From a virus, in IMG/VR virus record IMGVR_UViG_3300010885_019221, positions 1 to 29,312 of that record: a stretch of DNA of 29,312 nt; one strand, given 5' to 3'. The notes beneath the pieces were generated by a model. That model saw only the letters and a list, made by a program, of their open reading frames with translations. It made no database searches and was not told the DNA's origin. Of the stretch, positions 3,021 to 17,064 are shown one piece after another. Made by a program: the position numbers and the translations under genes. How positions within the stretch are numbered: the stretch's first letter is position 1; every line of letters starts with the position of its first letter.

Positions 3021-3332
3021 TTATTGAATTGCATTCTCAATAAACTTACGCATTAGTGCTTTTGGTTTAGCACCATTTTGTGTGGAGACCAACTCTCCAT
3101 CTTTATATACAAGAACAGTTGGAATAGAATTAATTCCAAGTTCTGCTGCTAAGGTGGTATTTGCATCAGCATCTACCTTATAGAATTCTACATTATCAAA
3201 TTCTGAATCTAACTCTTCTAGGATTGGTGTAAGCATTTTGCATGGACCACACCATTCAGCCCAGAAGTCAACCAATGTAAAACCATTTTCTACAGTTGAT
3301 TTAAAATCAACCTCAGATAGTTCCTTCATCAT
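3021..3332 (-). CDS. trxA: thioredoxin
   Basis: 103 aa, the usual thioredoxin length. The active site WCGPCK lies at about residues 27-32, preceded by the typical VDFWAE strand; the cis-proline segment SIPTVLVY and the late glycine of KDGELV are in place. The enzyme is a cytosolic dithiol-disulfide reductant, supporting ribonucleotide reduction and repair of oxidised proteins; phage thioredoxins are common metabolic genes, and the T7 polymerase uses a host one as processivity factor. Here the polymerase is a DnaE type, so that role is unlikely. Two ATGs in tandem (3332, 3329) follow GGGGAC. The start overlaps the previous gene by 20 bp. No partner reductase is present. Confidence 0.93.
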   Translation of the reverse strand: MMKELSEVDFKSTVENGFTLVDFWAEWCGPCKMLTPILEELDSEFDNVEFYKVDADANTTLAAELGINSIPTVLVYKDGELVSTQNGAKPKALMRKFIENAIQ

Positions 3333-3642
3333 AGTCCCCTTCCATATCTAAAATCAAACCACTTTCTTTTAACATTTCTCTACCTTTTTCATTAATGGCA
3401 TAAAGAGGTCCATTTTCATCAAAGGCTACATCAACATAACCTAAATCAAATAGATGGTGAAGTTCTGAATCAAGATCTTCAAGGATCTGGGTGTACATAT
3501 CTGGTAAATGAATTTTCATCAGTTCCATATTGGGCTTTAGAATTCTGTCTCCAGTTTCATCCATACCAACCCATTCAAATACGCCAATATCTTCTAGTTC
3601 ACCGATCATTTGATCAATTTCATCTTCGTAATCGTTTTCCAT
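3313..3642 (-). CDS. hypothetical acidic protein, 109 aa
   Basis: Unrecognised, highly acidic (EDEIDQMIGELEDIGVFEW at the start). Residues about 30-75 look helical, followed by DVAFDENGPLYAINEKGREMLKE, a beta-hairpin and helix reminiscent of the wing region of winged-helix proteins. A DNA-mimic or small regulator is conceivable but only a guess. An AGGAG Shine-Dalgarno lies 10 nt before the ATG, inside the 3' trailer of the tmRNA, so the transcript may run through the tmRNA and be released by processing. Its end overlaps the thioredoxin start. Confidence 0.6.
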   Translation of the reverse strand: MENDYEDEIDQMIGELEDIGVFEWVGMDETGDRILKPNMELMKIHLPDMYTQILEDLDSELHHLFDLGYVDVAFDENGPLYAINEKGREMLKESGLILDMEGDYDEGTI

Positions 3643-3652
3643 ATTTCTCCTG

Positions 3653-3938
3653 TGGAGTAGACGGGAATCGAACCCGTGTCCATCTTATATTCCATTATAC
3701 AGTATTACAGCAATAATTGTCTAGCATTTTCTTGCAATTTTCTTACATACACGACTTTCTGTTCCTAAGTTGTCGTCACTCGGCATATTAAGCAGTTACT
3801 AATGAATTAGAAACAAAACGCTTAACTGCGGAAGCAGTCATAGAGATTGCATTTATTTTTTTTAGATCGTTTAACAAGTCTATCTAACTTGTGCTGCTGT
3901 AGTAATTTCCTACTAAAATGTCGAAGCCTTTCTACCCC
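3653..3938 (-). ncRNA. ssrA: tmRNA (ssrA), phage-encoded
   Basis: Transfer-messenger RNA, which rescues stalled ribosomes and tags the nascent peptide for proteolysis. The 5' end GGGGTAG (3938-3932) pairs with CTACTCC (3660-3654); GGCTTCGAC follows the 5' strand as in other tmRNAs, and the 3' end has the T arm CACGGGTTCGATTCCCGT. The CCA is not fully encoded. The tag frame most likely resumes at GCA (3850) and reads AISMTASAVKRFVSNSLVTA, then TAA at 3790-3788. The 20-residue tag ends LVTA and not the usual LAA. Length is about 286 nt, short but within the known range. A GC-rich hairpin sits 10 nt before the 5' end, and the gene lies between the secreted transglycosylase and an acidic gene, all on the same strand. 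Confidence 0.88.
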
Positions 3939-3947
3939 TTAGTGAAT

Positions 3948-3969
3948 GGTGGGGATTTGACTCCCCACC
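3948..3969 (-). other. GC-rich hairpin between transglycosylase stop and tmRNA
   Basis: A perfect 8-bp stem (GGTGGGGA with TCCCCACC) and 6-nt loop. No U tract follows, so it is a poor intrinsic terminator. It may stabilise the upstream mRNA 3' end or help RNase cleavage that frees the tmRNA 5' end. Confidence 0.6.
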
Positions 3970-3975
3970 ACCCTT

Positions 3976-4509
3976 TTAATACCAACCAGTTCGTTGTGAA
4001 TGTGCCCATGCATTACATGGATTTCCATAACGCTTATCGATATAGTTAGCCCCCCATTTAATTTGAGTGACTGGATTACTATACCAGTCTTTGCCAAACT
4101 TAGCCATCTTAGAACCTGGAAGGGATTGTGGAATCCCATGCGCTCCAGAACTTCTATTATGAGCCTTATGACTCCATCCACTCTCTCTTGTCCAAAGATT
4201 CCCCAGACATACGAACTGTTGTCCTGTCCAGTTATAACTTTGTGCAACATAGAGTTTAGCAAAATTTTTATTTCCTGTAGGGGTTCCTACACGAGATAAT
4301 GCTACTCGGTACTTTGACCTAGATGCAGCCTGTTCCCTATCCCTATAATCTAAACTAATAGATGGTTTAGGACTTGGCTTTGGCTTACCTTTAGTACTTT
4401 CTCTTACTGGTTCTTTAGCGTGACTAATTCCCTGACCCGTTGGTAGCAATATGGAAAATACCATAAGAGGCGCAACGAGGGGGGAAAGTCTTTTCAGAAT
4501 ACCCGTCAT
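3976..4509 (-). CDS. secreted lytic transglycosylase-like protein (SLT fold)
   Basis: 177 aa. A signal peptide is visible: MTGILKR, then a hydrophobic core (residues 10-25) and a SHA cleavage site near residue 31. A Lys/Pro/Ser linker (about 32-52) follows. The C-terminal 80 residues carry the goose-lysozyme-like SLT pattern: LWTRESGWS with likely catalytic E109, then SGAHGIPQSLPGSKMA and IKWGANYIDKRYG. Such proteins cleave the glycan strand of peptidoglycan outside the membrane. A secreted enzyme could act in lysis, superinfection control or wall remodelling. It has its own promoter, with the ATG 6 nt after the -10 and no Shine-Dalgarno, so it should be leaderless. The tail C165-W177 is short compared with longer SLT proteins. 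Confidence 0.85.
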   Translation of the reverse strand: MTGILKRLSPLVAPLMVFSILLPTGQGISHAKEPVRESTKGKPKPSPKPSISLDYRDREQAASRSKYRVALSRVGTPTGNKNFAKLYVAQSYNWTGQQFVCLGNLWTRESGWSHKAHNRSSGAHGIPQSLPGSKMAKFGKDWYSNPVTQIKWGANYIDKRYGNPCNAWAHSQRTGWY

Positions 4510-5563: not shown

Positions 5564-6016
5564 TTAGTCTGTTCCCATTTCTGATTTTACAACAGCACTC
5601 AACTGCCAATGCCATTTTGCATGCATGTCTTGACGGTCTGCTAAGAAATTTGCAATACCCTGCTCACGAACTCGTGTGGCAAGATCAAATGCGTCCTTAA
5701 TCTTTTCCGTAACTGCATCATTTGCAGCCAGTAAATCTGCAGACATCATCACAGGATCAGAACTCACATCTGTTTCTGGAATAGATGCTAATTCAACAAA
5801 ACGACTTAACTTAAATGGTGCATAATCACCAAGTTTTCTTACTAATTCTGCAAAGGGGTCGATAGCCCCATCATAATCTTCATAAATTTCTTCAAAGAAT
5901 TCATGGAATTGTGGGAAATCGTCACCCTCAACATTCCAATGATATCCATGTGCTTTAAATTTTAATGTTACTGTATCTGCCAGCAACGACTTTAGTGCAT
6001 TAATTAATTCATCCAT
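5564..6016 (-). CDS. dps: Dps/ferritin-like protein
   Basis: 150 aa, four-helix ferritin-like fold. The Dps ferroxidase segment is clear: KFKAHGYHWNVEGDDFPQFHEFFEEIYEDYDGAIDPFAE, with the histidine, Asp and Glu ligands of the inter-subunit iron site. The length suits Dps, which forms 12-subunit shells that oxidise and store iron and shield DNA from peroxide. The N- and C-termini are short, so DNA binding by a Lys-rich tail is unlikely. It might protect phage or host DNA during infection. A TATAAT lies 6 nt before the ATG and there is no Shine-Dalgarno, so it looks leaderless. The tagged HAD gene follows after 2 nt. Confidence 0.9.
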   Translation of the reverse strand: MDELINALKSLLADTVTLKFKAHGYHWNVEGDDFPQFHEFFEEIYEDYDGAIDPFAELVRKLGDYAPFKLSRFVELASIPETDVSSDPVMMSADLLAANDAVTEKIKDAFDLATRVREQGIANFLADRQDMHAKWHWQLSAVVKSEMGTD

Positions 6017-13020: not shown

Positions 13021-13315
13021 TGGCAATTTTTAGAAGGATCAGATAACCAATGGTATCATCTACTGCATCTTTCATTCCCTCATTAGCATAAGACTGATTA
13101 TTCTTAATTCTATTTAACTTATCATCAATTCTTGCTGACAACTGCTCCACTGCTGAACCTTTGGCAAAGATACCGTTTGGATGTAGTGCTGAATCTCCAT
13201 ATGAAATATTCTTTTCAATTAGCATACGAGTAACCTCAAGTGCTGCCTTTAAGATTGGTGCTCCTGATGGGGCTTCTTCTGCTAATTTAACAATACTATT
13301 AATTTCTTTTTGCAT
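13001..13315 (-). CDS. Nmad1/DUF1599-like protein, 104 aa
   Basis: The segment [40 protein letters not shown], followed by [18 protein letters not shown], matches the DUF1599 (nucleotide-modification-associated domain 1) pattern, an all-helical module related to MazG-type folds. In phages, such genes sit with hypermodified-base enzymes, but no modification enzyme other than the IMPDH-like gene is visible here. It overlaps the IMPDH-like gene by 17 bp, so it is translationally linked. Family assignment is moderate. Confidence 0.65.
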
Positions 13316-14333
13316 GTGGCTTACTCTCTCCTAAACTTGAATGTGTTACTTTAATAAATTCTGATTCTTTGTGGAATTGTTCTAGATTATGTGCTCCAGA
13401 ATATGACAAGGCACTACCAAGTCCACCAGACAATTCATCTAAAACATCCTTTACTGAACCACGATATGGCACAAATGTTTTAATTCCTTCAACTACAGAC
13501 ACAATTCCACGACCATTCTCTTGCGCCTCTTTTGAAGCCATCCCACGAAAACTTTTGTATCCATCAATCAAGTTACCTGGAGATTCATCTGTTCCTGCAA
13601 GCATAGATCCGACCATTACAGCATTTGCACCTGCTGCAAGAGCCTTAGCAGCATCTCCTGAATTTCTAATTCCACCGTCTGCAATAATAGATGCCCCATC
13701 AGAATAATTAATTCTCTCTCTAATGTCCATTATGGATGCTAGTGTTGGCATTCCATGACCAGAAACAATTCGGGTAGTACATACTGACCCACCACCAATT
13801 CCCACACGGATAGAATCTGCACCTGCATCCTGAAGCCTTGCAAATCCTTCATATGTAGAAACATTACCAGCCATGATGTGAATTGAATTACTTAAAGTTC
13901 TACGAATCTTTTTTACTGCTTCAATAGCATATTCACTGTGACCATTTGCAGTATCGATTAAGATTACTGATGCTCCTGCAAACGCTAGTTGCCATGCTTC
14001 AGATAAAAATTCTCCAGTTGCACCAACTGCTACACCACAAATTGCTCTGTCGTGTGCCTTAACCATTTTAACCTGACGAATTCTTTCCTCTAAGGTATTG
14101 TACCTATGAATAATCCCTAAGCCACCATTTTTTCTAGTTGCTACTGCAAGTTCATATTCACATACGGTATCCATAGGTGCTGCAATTACTGGAACTTTTA
14201 GTCCAATTCCTCGGCTTCCATTACCAATAGAAGTGTTTAATCTGACATCTTTTCTACTAGAAACATCTGAGTTTTGTGGCACAAGAAGGATATCATCAAA
14301 GCATAACTGCTCTGAATCTTTATATAATTTCAT
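13299..14333 (-). CDS. IMP dehydrogenase / GMP reductase
   Basis: 344 aa, a TIM barrel with no CBS domains. The N-terminus [18 protein letters not shown] is the family's signature. The catalytic loop [11 protein letters not shown] puts the nucleophile at C185. [31 protein letters not shown] is the phosphate-binding region, and [27 protein letters not shown] is the flap region. IMP dehydrogenase makes XMP with NAD, and GMP reductase turns GMP to IMP; CBS-free length alone does not decide between them. The reaction changes the guanine pool, useful for DNA synthesis or base modification. Its ATG abuts the previous stop. Confidence 0.88.
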
Positions 14334-14981
14334 TTACCAATCCCAAATATCTTTAGTCTCATCATTAAATGGTCTTTCAAATACCTCTTGTCCAGGTTGA
14401 CCGCCCCATTTACGAATAAAATACTCTCTAAGTTGTCCAAATTGTTCACCACTGCAGTTAGGATTTGCTGGATCAGCATTTTGAGTAGCAGAACCAACAT
14501 GCCAAGCAACAGCATGTCTAGCAACATACCCTTTTGCTCCCACTAAATTCATTCTCCTATGCATGTCATTATCCTCAAAATACGCTGGGAAAAAGTTTTC
14601 ATCAAAGGATCCACAATTATTAATTAATTTTGGAATATTAATTCCGAAACAGAAGAAGTCTGCTCCAGGAACATATCTTTCATCTCCCTTAAACCACATA
14701 TTTTGATTCGCTGATACCAATGTTGCATCAGTTTCTTTTAAAATACTATAAATTTCTTCAATAGCACCTTTCTCAAAGGTTACATCATCATTAGTAATAA
14801 TTGCATATTCATATCCGTCTGCTAAAGCCCTACGCATACCTTCGTTCCATGCACCAGAAACACCTGTATTATGAACATAATTATCAATTACATATGGTCT
14901 AACATCACAATCAACTGAATACATTAAACGAGTAAATAAATCAAATCTACTAAGTACTGGAATAATTAAAGCGATTGTCAT
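14334..14981 (-). CDS. glycosyltransferase, GT-A fold (family 2-like)
   Basis: 215 aa from the ATG at 14981, which overlaps the dehydratase stop (ATGA); an upstream ATG at 14993 would only lengthen the overlap. ALIIPVLSR begins the fold, SGAWNEGMRRAL is the usual helix after a sugar-nucleotide loop, ITNDDVTF is the DxD-type motif, and FFPAYFEDNDMHRRMNL is the acceptor region (EDxD), typical of GT2 enzymes. There is no membrane segment, so it acts in the cytosol. Donor and acceptor cannot be read. It is the last gene of the sugar cassette. Confidence 0.85.
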   Translation of the reverse strand: MTIALIIPVLSRFDLFTRLMYSVDCDVRPYVIDNYVHNTGVSGAWNEGMRRALADGYEYAIITNDDVTFEKGAIEEIYSILKETDATLVSANQNMWFKGDERYVPGADFFCFGINIPKLINNCGSFDENFFPAYFEDNDMHRRMNLVGAKGYVARHAVAWHVGSATQNADPANPNCSGEQFGQLREYFIRKWGGQPGQEVFERPFNDETKDIWDW

Positions 14982-15988
14982 AGGTTTAACCATTCTGGAT
15001 TAGCCATTGTCCATTCAACAGTTTTTTGGATAGATTCCTTTAAAGGAATTGGCAACTTCCAACCTGTATCGGTAATTTTTTTACCATCAAGCGCATAGCG
15101 GAGATCGTGCCCTGGGCGAGAGGAATGGAAGTCTTCTAGTTCATAATTAAGTGGTTTTCCTACTGCTTCTGCAATCATTTGAGCCATCTCAAGATTATCT
15201 ACTTCACGCTCACCTACAATATGAAAACGCTCTGGCATATCTGCTTCTCCGTAAAGAGGAAAATGTTGATTAAGAACATGAAGTAATCCATCAGCCTGAT
15301 TTCTAGCGTGTAAATAGAATCTACTACCAACTTGACCCTCTGGAGAAGCATGAATCTTCATCAGATCTCCATTGATAACCTTTTTAATTACCATTGGCAT
15401 AAATTTTTCTGGATCTTGAGTTTCACCAATAATATTCATTGTATTAGTAATAGCCAAAGGTATTCCGTATGTGCGCCAGTACGAGAATGCAATATCCTCC
15501 TGCGCTGCTTTAGAAGCAGAATAAGGATTACTTGGGAAATGCTGATCTACCCATTCACGATGTGCATAACCTGCTGGGGCTGGACCGTATACCTCATCAG
15601 TTGATACCTGCAAAAACTTTTCTGGCTGTGCAATTCTAGCCCAATCAAGTAAGTGACACATCAGAGAGACATTATTTATAATAAACGGAGCAGGATACTC
15701 AATGCTACGATCTACATGACTTTCTGATGCAACATTAATTACATAATCAATTTTACCAAATTCATTAGCAGTAACTGCTGAAATTGGTGCGGTAAAGTCA
15801 CATCTAAGCACCTTAATACGCTTATAAGCATCTGGAATATCATCACAGGCTACCCGAATTCTATCTGTAAGCCCCTTATGGGTAAATGTTGTTGGGCATA
15901 CTACAAACCAATCTGTATTGACAAGGATATGTCGTAGCACATGGCTTCCAACAAATCCTGATGCACCTGTTAAAAGTACTCTTTTCAC
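14978..15988 (-). CDS. rmlB: dTDP-glucose 4,6-dehydratase-like (RmlB family)
   Basis: 336 aa from a GTG at 15988; a longer frame begins at a TTG at 16000 but GGAG lies 6 nt before the GTG, and the GTG overlaps the previous stop. Short-chain dehydrogenase fold: GASGFVGSH NAD-binding turn, STDEVYG with the active-site Asp and Glu, YSASK (YxxxK), and a C-terminal SRPGHDLRYALDGKKI close to RmlB's DRPGHDxRYA. Such enzymes convert NDP-glucose to NDP-4-keto-6-deoxyglucose. Together with a DegT aminotransferase and a GNAT, it fits a pathway to an acetylated amino-6-deoxy sugar. Confidence 0.85.
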   Translation of the reverse strand: MKRVLLTGASGFVGSHVLRHILVNTDWFVVCPTTFTHKGLTDRIRVACDDIPDAYKRIKVLRCDFTAPISAVTANEFGKIDYVINVASESHVDRSIEYPAPFIINNVSLMCHLLDWARIAQPEKFLQVSTDEVYGPAPAGYAHREWVDQHFPSNPYSASKAAQEDIAFSYWRTYGIPLAITNTMNIIGETQDPEKFMPMVIKKVINGDLMKIHASPEGQVGSRFYLHARNQADGLLHVLNQHFPLYGEADMPERFHIVGEREVDNLEMAQMIAEAVGKPLNYELEDFHSSRPGHDLRYALDGKKITDTGWKLPIPLKESIQKTVEWTMANPEWLNL

Positions 15989-17064
15989 TAAATTCTCCAA
16001 TTCTTTATTATACTAATAATACTATTTATTTCTTTATCTGTCAACCACCAGCCGACAGGAATATTTAATTGATTTTTATTAAAATGATTTAATCCTAAGA
16101 GTTCTTCTTCCTTGAAGTTAATCATACAGGTATTTTGATCATTTCTATGATGGGCTGGGCTAGAAACAACATCATTGTCAGAAAGATATTTGATAAACTC
16201 ATCCCTATCTATCCCATTAAGAACAATAGGAAATATCCAGTATGAACATGTTTCATCAAATGGGATAACTGTTATATGTTCTAAGTTTGAAAGTTCTTCG
16301 CAAAACTTTTTAGCATTTATTCTACTTTTATTTACAGAGTCATTTGCCAACTTAACATTTGCCAGACCAATAGATGCAGATACATCATTCATATGATACT
16401 TAAATCCAGCCCTCTTGATATCTTGTTTATACCTAAAACTTTCATTGCTAGTTCTATCTAATCCAAACCACCTTAAATTTCTAGCCTCTTTGTCTTTATC
16501 TTCAGGACATATTAATGCCCCTCCATCTGATGTAGTTAAAAATTTAATGGCTTGAAAACTATAGCAAATATAGTCTCCACGCTCAACATTTTCTGGAAGG
16601 CTACCCCAACAATGTGCTGCATCCTCAATGACTGGAATACCAAAAGATTTTAACTCTTTATAATCAGGTAATCTTCCAGCCCAATCCACAGCAATAATAG
16701 CCTTAGTTTTTTCTGTAATTAATTTTTTAACACTATTAATATCAATTAATCCAGTTACTGGGTCTACATCAGCCCATCTGATTTTTGCTCCACGATGAAT
16801 TGCTCCAATTTGTGTGGCAAAGCAGGTCATTGGTGTTGAAATTACTTCATCTCCAGGGTTAACATTACATAATTCTACTGCTAAATCAATAGCACTTGTT
16901 CCAGAATTAACTGTAACGGGTCTTGTTTTTGTTTTAAGAGTTTCCCAAAGTAGATCTTCAAATTCTTCTACTTTTTCTCCTTGAGCAACATACCCAGATT
17001 TTAAGACGGGGGAAATGAAATCCACGACATCATCTGACATAGTTACTTTAAATAAATCTATCAT
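15988..17064 (-). CDS. DegT/DnrJ/EryC1 sugar aminotransferase
   Basis: 358 aa PLP enzyme of the DegT class. TVNSGTSAIDLA is the cofactor phosphate region, VIEDAAH (about 146-151) the aspartate contact, and CYSFQAIKFLTTSDGGAL holds the Schiff-base K174. The substrate would be a keto sugar nucleotide, such as the product of the RmlB-like enzyme. The start overlaps the glycosyltransferase stop (ATGA) and the stop abuts the dehydratase start. A TTGACA-N17-TATTAT promoter sits in its last codons. Glutamate or glutamine as amino donor is expected from the family. Confidence 0.9.
   Translation of the reverse strand: MIDLFKVTMSDDVVDFISPVLKSGYVAQGEKVEEFEDLLWETLKTKTRPVTVNSGTSAIDLAVELCNVNPGDEVISTPMTCFATQIGAIHRGAKIRWADVDPVTGLIDINSVKKLITEKTKAIIAVDWAGRLPDYKELKSFGIPVIEDAAHCWGSLPENVERGDYICYSFQAIKFLTTSDGGALICPEDKDKEARNLRWFGLDRTSNESFRYKQDIKRAGFKYHMNDVSASIGLANVKLANDSVNKSRINAKKFCEELSNLEHITVIPFDETCSYWIFPIVLNGIDRDEFIKYLSDNDVVSSPAHHRNDQNTCMINFKEEELLGLNHFNKNQLNIPVGWWLTDKEINSIISIIKNWRI
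16016..16044 (-). promoter_or_regulatory. probable promoter of the dehydratase gene, inside the aminotransferase gene
   Basis: -35 TTGACA (16044-16039), 17-bp spacer, -10 TATTAT (16021-16016). It lies in the codons for WWLTDKEINS near the end of the aminotransferase gene. The start would be near 16009, giving a leader of about 21 nt with GGAG. No extended -10 is present. Confidence 0.5.

Follow-up and report, generated by a model that had tools for sequence, protein, structure and literature searches.

Phage-encoded tmRNAs have been reported for the mycobacteriophages Bxz1, Wildcat and others (PMC4131195), which like the phage studied here carry the gene but are different phages, and for the methylophage Melnitz, the tmRNA of which is a permuted two-piece RNA of alphaproteobacterial type with a glutamine riboswitch, unlike the one-piece RNA described below (PMC9004378). 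An earlier note, made from the sequence of this DNA alone, had called tmRNA rare in phages. This is overstated, as the Melnitz report gives a tmRNA in 402 of 18,146 phage genomes (PMC9004378) and the gene is routinely annotated in the phage family relevant here: tmRNA is a stated feature of the cluster BE1 phages (PMC5764925), Samisti12 of the Stanwilliamsviridae being one of these, and tag-peptide annotations are present in many Stanwilliamsviridae records. The commonest tag length given in a tmRNA database paper is 10 (PMC11915505). Our literature search found no paper joining an LVTA end with tmRNA, and a search for Stanwilliamsviridae or tmRNA left the family unnamed among the matches listed.

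For the Streptomyces phages of this family and their relative Elmer, ARAGORN predicts the tags ANSKNASAYALAA (Annadreamy, Comrade), ANSRNAFALAA (Muntaha), ANSNVASAYALAA (StarPlatinum, Elmer), ANSNFALAA (Phredrick), DNSNVAFALAA (Tomas) and ANSKFAFALAA (Samisti12), and most Stanwilliamsviridae tags end in ALAA. These phages resemble the one studied here in having an orthologous tmRNA with a shared motif and covarying helices, a likeness based for Samisti12 and Elmer on our model R1, and differ from it in their tags, which have 9-13 residues and end in ALAA.

The DNA analysed here, called the window, is a linear IMG/VR virus record of 29,312 bases, so that the phage is probably incomplete. ARAGORN identified one tmRNA and four tRNAs in it, all on the minus strand, the tmRNA encoding the tag AISMTASAVKRFVSNSLVTA. 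We confirmed the region 3652-3938 (minus strand, 287 nt) as a one-piece tmRNA gene (ssrA); of the coordinates 3653-3938 given in the earlier note, the end stands and the start is off by one base. The Infernal search which that note had proposed as a check yielded with Rfam 15 (cmscan) an RF00023 match at 3650-3938 with 91.0 bits, well above the curated cut-off of 47 (E 2.1e-34), covering model positions 1-374 of 374 and thereby placing the RNA among the tmRNAs. A hand-typed acceptor/T-arm pattern matched once in the window with one mismatch and in none of 100 shuffles. The CCA end is not encoded, the gene ending in CCAC followed by AGGAG. Together with the covariation shared with ten phage relatives, ARAGORN and the full-length RF00023 match bear out that a phage tmRNA is encoded at this locus.

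The covariation was assessed in an alignment of the window tmRNA, nine Streptomyces phage tmRNAs and one IMG/VR relative (n = 11), in which RNAalifold predicted 44 pairs, 29 of them with changes on both sides. In a structure with hand-named helices, including stem 1 of pseudoknot PK1 and both stems of PK2, 94.3% of the cells pair, compared to a mean of 76.2% in shuffled alignments (0/500 shuffles reach 94.3%), and both-sided changes occur in 30 of its 46 pairs. Slid versions pair at 38-48%, a control flattering the structure because it was partly derived from the same sequences. The single-sequence fold of the window tmRNA is unremarkable (z -1.87; 12 of 200 shuffles fold equally well). The tRNA-like domain consists of a 7-bp acceptor stem and a T-arm without an anticodon arm. 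The 5' strand of the acceptor stem (3932-3938, minus strand) pairs with 3654-3660 and holds G3 of a G3-U pair kept in all 11 aligned tmRNAs, and the T-arm together with the 3' strand lies at 3654-3677 (minus strand), as placed by the RF00023 match and the covariation structure; helices 1 and 9 are fully paired in 11/11 tmRNAs.

Pseudoknots are present on both sides of the tag. PK1, upstream of the resume codon (3863-3892, minus strand), is formed by ACAAGU/ACUUGU and UAGAU/AUCUA, stem 1 (helix 6) covarying and stem 2 being identified by eye only. PK2, downstream of the tag (3751-3783, minus strand; helices 7 and 8), covaries in both stems and is built around GGAACAGAA, which is invariant in 13/13 tmRNAs, seven of these having been chosen via a pattern (nearly) containing this motif or as kin of such picks. 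Compared to the typical four pseudoknots, we discerned PK1 and PK2 without PK3 and PK4, in an RNA of 287 nt versus a model of 374 positions. As a separate observation, the tag segment UUUUGUUUCUAA (3807-3818) can pair with UUAGGAACAGAA (3757-3768) over 12 positions, including two G-U pairs. UUAGGAACAGAA contains the invariant motif, and this pairing, used in the minimum-energy fold and not noticed by eye in the relatives, would compete with PK2.

The tag reading frame lies at 3788-3850 on the minus strand (gene positions 89-151, ARAGORN). It starts at the resume codon GCA in the context AAUAAAU-GCA and stays open for 20 codons up to a UAA stop; AUA precedes the resume codon in 13/13 aligned tmRNAs, so that the arrangement of AUA, resume codon, open tag frame and stop known from tmRNAs is present. 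The earlier note had read a tag of 20 residues ending in LVTA, while allowing for a resume codon elsewhere. ARAGORN returned the same length and the same end, and the alignment with the relatives is consistent with this resume codon and frame. The end is Thr-Ala and thus not the C-terminal Ala-Ala of an ALAA-type ssrA degron.

The window phage is, judged from sequence comparison, a distant relative of the Stanwilliamsviridae Streptomyces phages, which carry orthologous tmRNAs. Its large terminase subunit (TerL) is 65% identical over the whole length to that of Streptomyces phages and its DnaE 58% identical to those of Wakanda, Muntaha and BillNye, the latter two being classed as Stanwilliamsviridae, and the order DnaE - TerL - tRNAs - tmRNA is common to the window and BillNye. 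Despite these identities and this order, the window, a 29-kb fragment, forms a separate branch: in quick DnaE trees it groups with the IMG/VR contigs L272 (80% identical) and L270, apart from the Streptomyces clade. A pattern for the 3' half shared by these tmRNAs retrieved 21 IMG/VR loci, many with tags identical to Streptomyces phage tags.

Three of the 21 IMG/VR loci (L228, L382, L387), the nearest ones with a shared gene neighbourhood, are like the window in having a one-piece tmRNA with a long tag, a similar 5' half and PK1, and the same neighbours on both sides: a transglycosylase-like gene directly upstream (in the window at 3976-4509, minus strand; PHROG 12661, E 1.6e-40) and a homologue of a conserved 109-aa ORF (ORF109; 3313-3642, minus strand) directly downstream. 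In two of these records DnaE is 70-71% identical to that of the window, the third being without a match. They differ from it in the resume codon GGC (Gly) and in tags of 23 residues with SVAA or PVAA at the end, the L387 tag being counted from the aligned start, as the ARAGORN start lies earlier. Alignment at the DNA level keeps the start of the tag (ISMTASAV in the window versus TLITESAL) and shows a few mid-tag codons missing in the window and an end VTA versus VAA. At the peptide level, the alignment scores with the three tags exceed chance only modestly, being reached by 46, 33 and 90 of 2000 shuffles, respectively, and MAFFT places the window tag otherwise than the DNA-level alignment. 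The best interpretation of the window tag is a shortened form of these 23-residue sister-phage tags, its end being VAA with one Ala-to-Thr change, and its length looks like a trait of the clade, common to its relatives.

A fourth relative, L350 in record G097 (DnaE 72%), encodes the tag GVSKNTLALAA and has its ORF109 homologue one gene away. Its tmRNA (L350:1501-1735) has only 235 nt, no visible PK1 and a T-loop read by eye as UGCAAAU; it was missed by ARAGORN and with 44.8 bits stays just below the Rfam cut-off.

Wilnyevirus BillNye and the related Ankus and Byblos are family-level kin of the window phage and likewise have 20-residue tags, in these cases ending in LVTV, so that LVT is shared, whereas the last residue is V and the remainder of the tag is dissimilar. 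The score of the BillNye tag peptide against the window tag is reached by 25 of 2000 shuffles. Common descent of LVTA and LVTV is not our first choice, as the quick DnaE trees separate the window from Wilnyevirus and the tmRNAs of the two are no closer to each other (56-59% identity) than the window tmRNA is to others (55-60%). Wilnyevirus LVTV is probably independent of the window LVTA because it is nested among ALAA phages.

The window tmRNA is an inherited phage gene and not a recent host capture, which the synteny with other phages makes unnecessary to invoke. A 32-base pattern of the 3' end had no exact match in genome contigs, a brittle test. We could not use TerL to assign a host, since in genome contigs it matched only one cyanobacterial and one Cytophagaceae MAG contig, possibly binning errors; one of these contigs (L250, 109,918 bases, TerL 68% identical), in a cyanobacterial MAG, is either a host clue or such an error. 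The window tag resembles neither the sampled cyanobacterial nor the sampled Bacteroidota tags.

Several further features were observed around the gene. A contig (L083) matches the gene adjoining the window tmRNA without any difference over 38 residues and then stops. The records of the nearest relatives, G052 and G003, appear to end before reaching this locus. A strong hairpin GGTGGGGA/TCCCCACC at 3947-3970, in the stretch separating the tmRNA from the transglycosylase gene, has a terminator score on the plus strand and no following T run on the minus strand; it is a possible processing site. Processing of the tmRNA may affect ORF109 because the tmRNA 3' end adjoins AGGAG, a likely ribosome site (3640-3655). 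Beside the tRNA genes, 5172-5615 matches phage polynucleotide kinase (PHROGs) and HAD hydrolases (Pfam), making RNA end repair possible, and the protein encoded at 5564-6016 is ferritin-like (Dps-type) and has homologues in G179 and G180. At 13299-17064, an IMP dehydrogenase/GMP reductase-like gene adjoins glycosyltransferase, GDP-mannose dehydratase-like and DegT aminotransferase genes, forming a sugar or nucleotide module in the phage.

The earlier note had regarded the length of the tag as unusual. This is overstated, as tags of at least 20 residues are ordinary in IMG/VR and in cyanobacteria and occur in the relatives. A T-arm pattern matched at least 120 IMG/VR loci, ARAGORN finding a tmRNA in 76 among the matches listed, with the caveat that these calls likely include misread genes and the contigs may include host DNA; the 75 unique tags among these listed matches include 60 ending in AA, 14 with at least 20 residues, one ending in TA and none in VTA. 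The bacterial comparison covered the phyla, taken from the MAG titles, of two MAGs matched by TerL: 29 cyanobacterial loci gave 27 unique tags (23 ending in AA, 10 with at least 20 residues) and 29 Bacteroidota loci gave 21 (20 ending in AA, 0 with at least 20 residues). According to these counts the length of 20 residues is ordinary and the VTA end uncommon. In three other viral contigs (L199, L230, L138) the tmRNA tags have 24-26 residues, with VLV as the end of one and VAA as that of the other two.

Among related IMG/VR records, many of which are fragments, the gene is sparse. RF00023 gave no match above its cut-off in 47 TerL-relative records chosen from 80 loci, in 50 DnaE-relative records chosen from 80 loci (the closest being G097 with 44.8 bits) or in three related records, two of them also in the TerL set. 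Model R1, which detects 6/6 tmRNAs outside its building set, found a tmRNA in one of 79 DnaE-relative records (of 80 loci), namely G097, one of its own training sequences, suggesting that the gene is dispensable or often lies outside the fragment. The 80 loci are an incomplete sample, as it was a DNA pattern, and not those lists, that yielded the relatives G179-G181.

Our data support a model, which we consider probable, according to which the window encodes a working-type tmRNA, inherited in its lineage together with its neighbours, that would rescue ribosomes and add a weakened ClpXP-type degron. The most likely mechanism is ordinary trans-translation with host SmpB, the degron being read less well by host ClpXP. 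SmpB (PF01668) was found in 0 of 15 phage records (the window and 14 others), with 10 of 14 controls positive, so that it would have to come from the host. We infer charging, rescue, tagging and slower degradation as follows: during infection the host would process the window tmRNA, add CCA, charge it with alanine by AlaRS and load its own SmpB; the charged RNA would enter stalled ribosomes, the mRNA of which is broken or lacks a stop codon; each ribosome would be freed after addition of AISMTASAVKRFVSNSLVTA to the unfinished protein; and the tagged protein would still carry a ClpXP-type degron, a weaker one, for a protease supplied by the host. For E. coli ClpXP it is reported that replacement of the last or the penultimate alanine increases KM while hardly altering Vmax, and that ClpX contacts the methyl group and the carboxylate of the last alanine (PMC7652416). 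As VTA keeps the last alanine and alters the penultimate one, weaker binding rather than loss is expected, and the suggestion of the earlier note that an LVTA end may alter ClpX recognition is reasonable by this analogy. In M. tuberculosis, LacZ-ASV was reported to be as abundant as untagged LacZ and LacZ-LAA to be lower (PMC3613350). The argument presumes that the protease of the window host behaves like those of E. coli and M. tuberculosis.

The same observations bear on other readings. In mycobacteriophage DS6A, a truncated or dominant-negative tmRNA mimic sequestering host SmpB has been reported (PMC4131195; PMC11915505), but the DS6A RNA corresponds approximately to the tRNA-like domain alone, whereas a complete tag frame and both pseudoknots PK1 and PK2 are present in the window RNA, making this role highly improbable here. 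Decay of a formerly useful tmRNA, its tag now drifting and its VTA end without a role, appears quite unlikely to us: the short L350 RNA with its low score, missing PK1 and odd T-loop and the absence of a tmRNA from most related IMG/VR records would fit it, yet the ALAA tag of L350 is still intact, and the window RNA retains acceptor stem, T-arm, PK1, PK2, frame and stop at 91 bits and still adjoins the same genes as its relatives' tmRNAs.

Retargeting of the tag under selection, in which departure from ALAA or VAA would spare rescued proteins from the protease or direct them to a different one, is a possibility to which we give a rather low probability. VT ends appear twice on the DnaE tree, in the window and in Wilnyevirus beside the ALAA-tagged Muntaha, and the 20-residue LVTV tags of Wilnyevirus are kept under mostly synonymous change: seven tag codons differ between BillNye and Byblos, six of them synonymously, with six of seven base changes in third positions (a chance of ~0.007 if positions are equal, by our own arithmetic). 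However, these are two cases only, most tags of the family end in ALAA or VAA, and a hairpin seen by eye over the same Wilnyevirus codons (GUGAC/GUCAC versus GUAAC/GUUAC) could also yield synonymous change, so that part of the pattern may be RNA structure. In L228, L382 and L387 the codon changes are mixed (3+6, 2+4 and 1+6 synonymous plus other changes, respectively). A wider version, which we hold to be doubtful, would make the tmRNA tag a selected phage trait throughout the family, independent moves from ALAA/VAA to VT[AV] giving weak or redirected degrons which free ribosomes while sparing or rerouting unfinished proteins.

The reason for a phage-borne tmRNA becomes testable with orthologues from a single phage family, the tags of which differ in length and end (ALAA, VAA, VTA, VTV), as the tags AISMTASAVKRFVSNSLVTA, GTLITESALRNKLETFVRISVAA, ANNIDAEYEALCAEYALVTV and ANSKNASAYALAA can be compared on a single reporter in one laboratory host, and the VT ends in two lineages of these phages are a point which specialists might want to test. 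The window RNA thus joins the known phage tmRNAs as one of the Stanwilliamsviridae type, with a long-form tag and a penultimate threonine.
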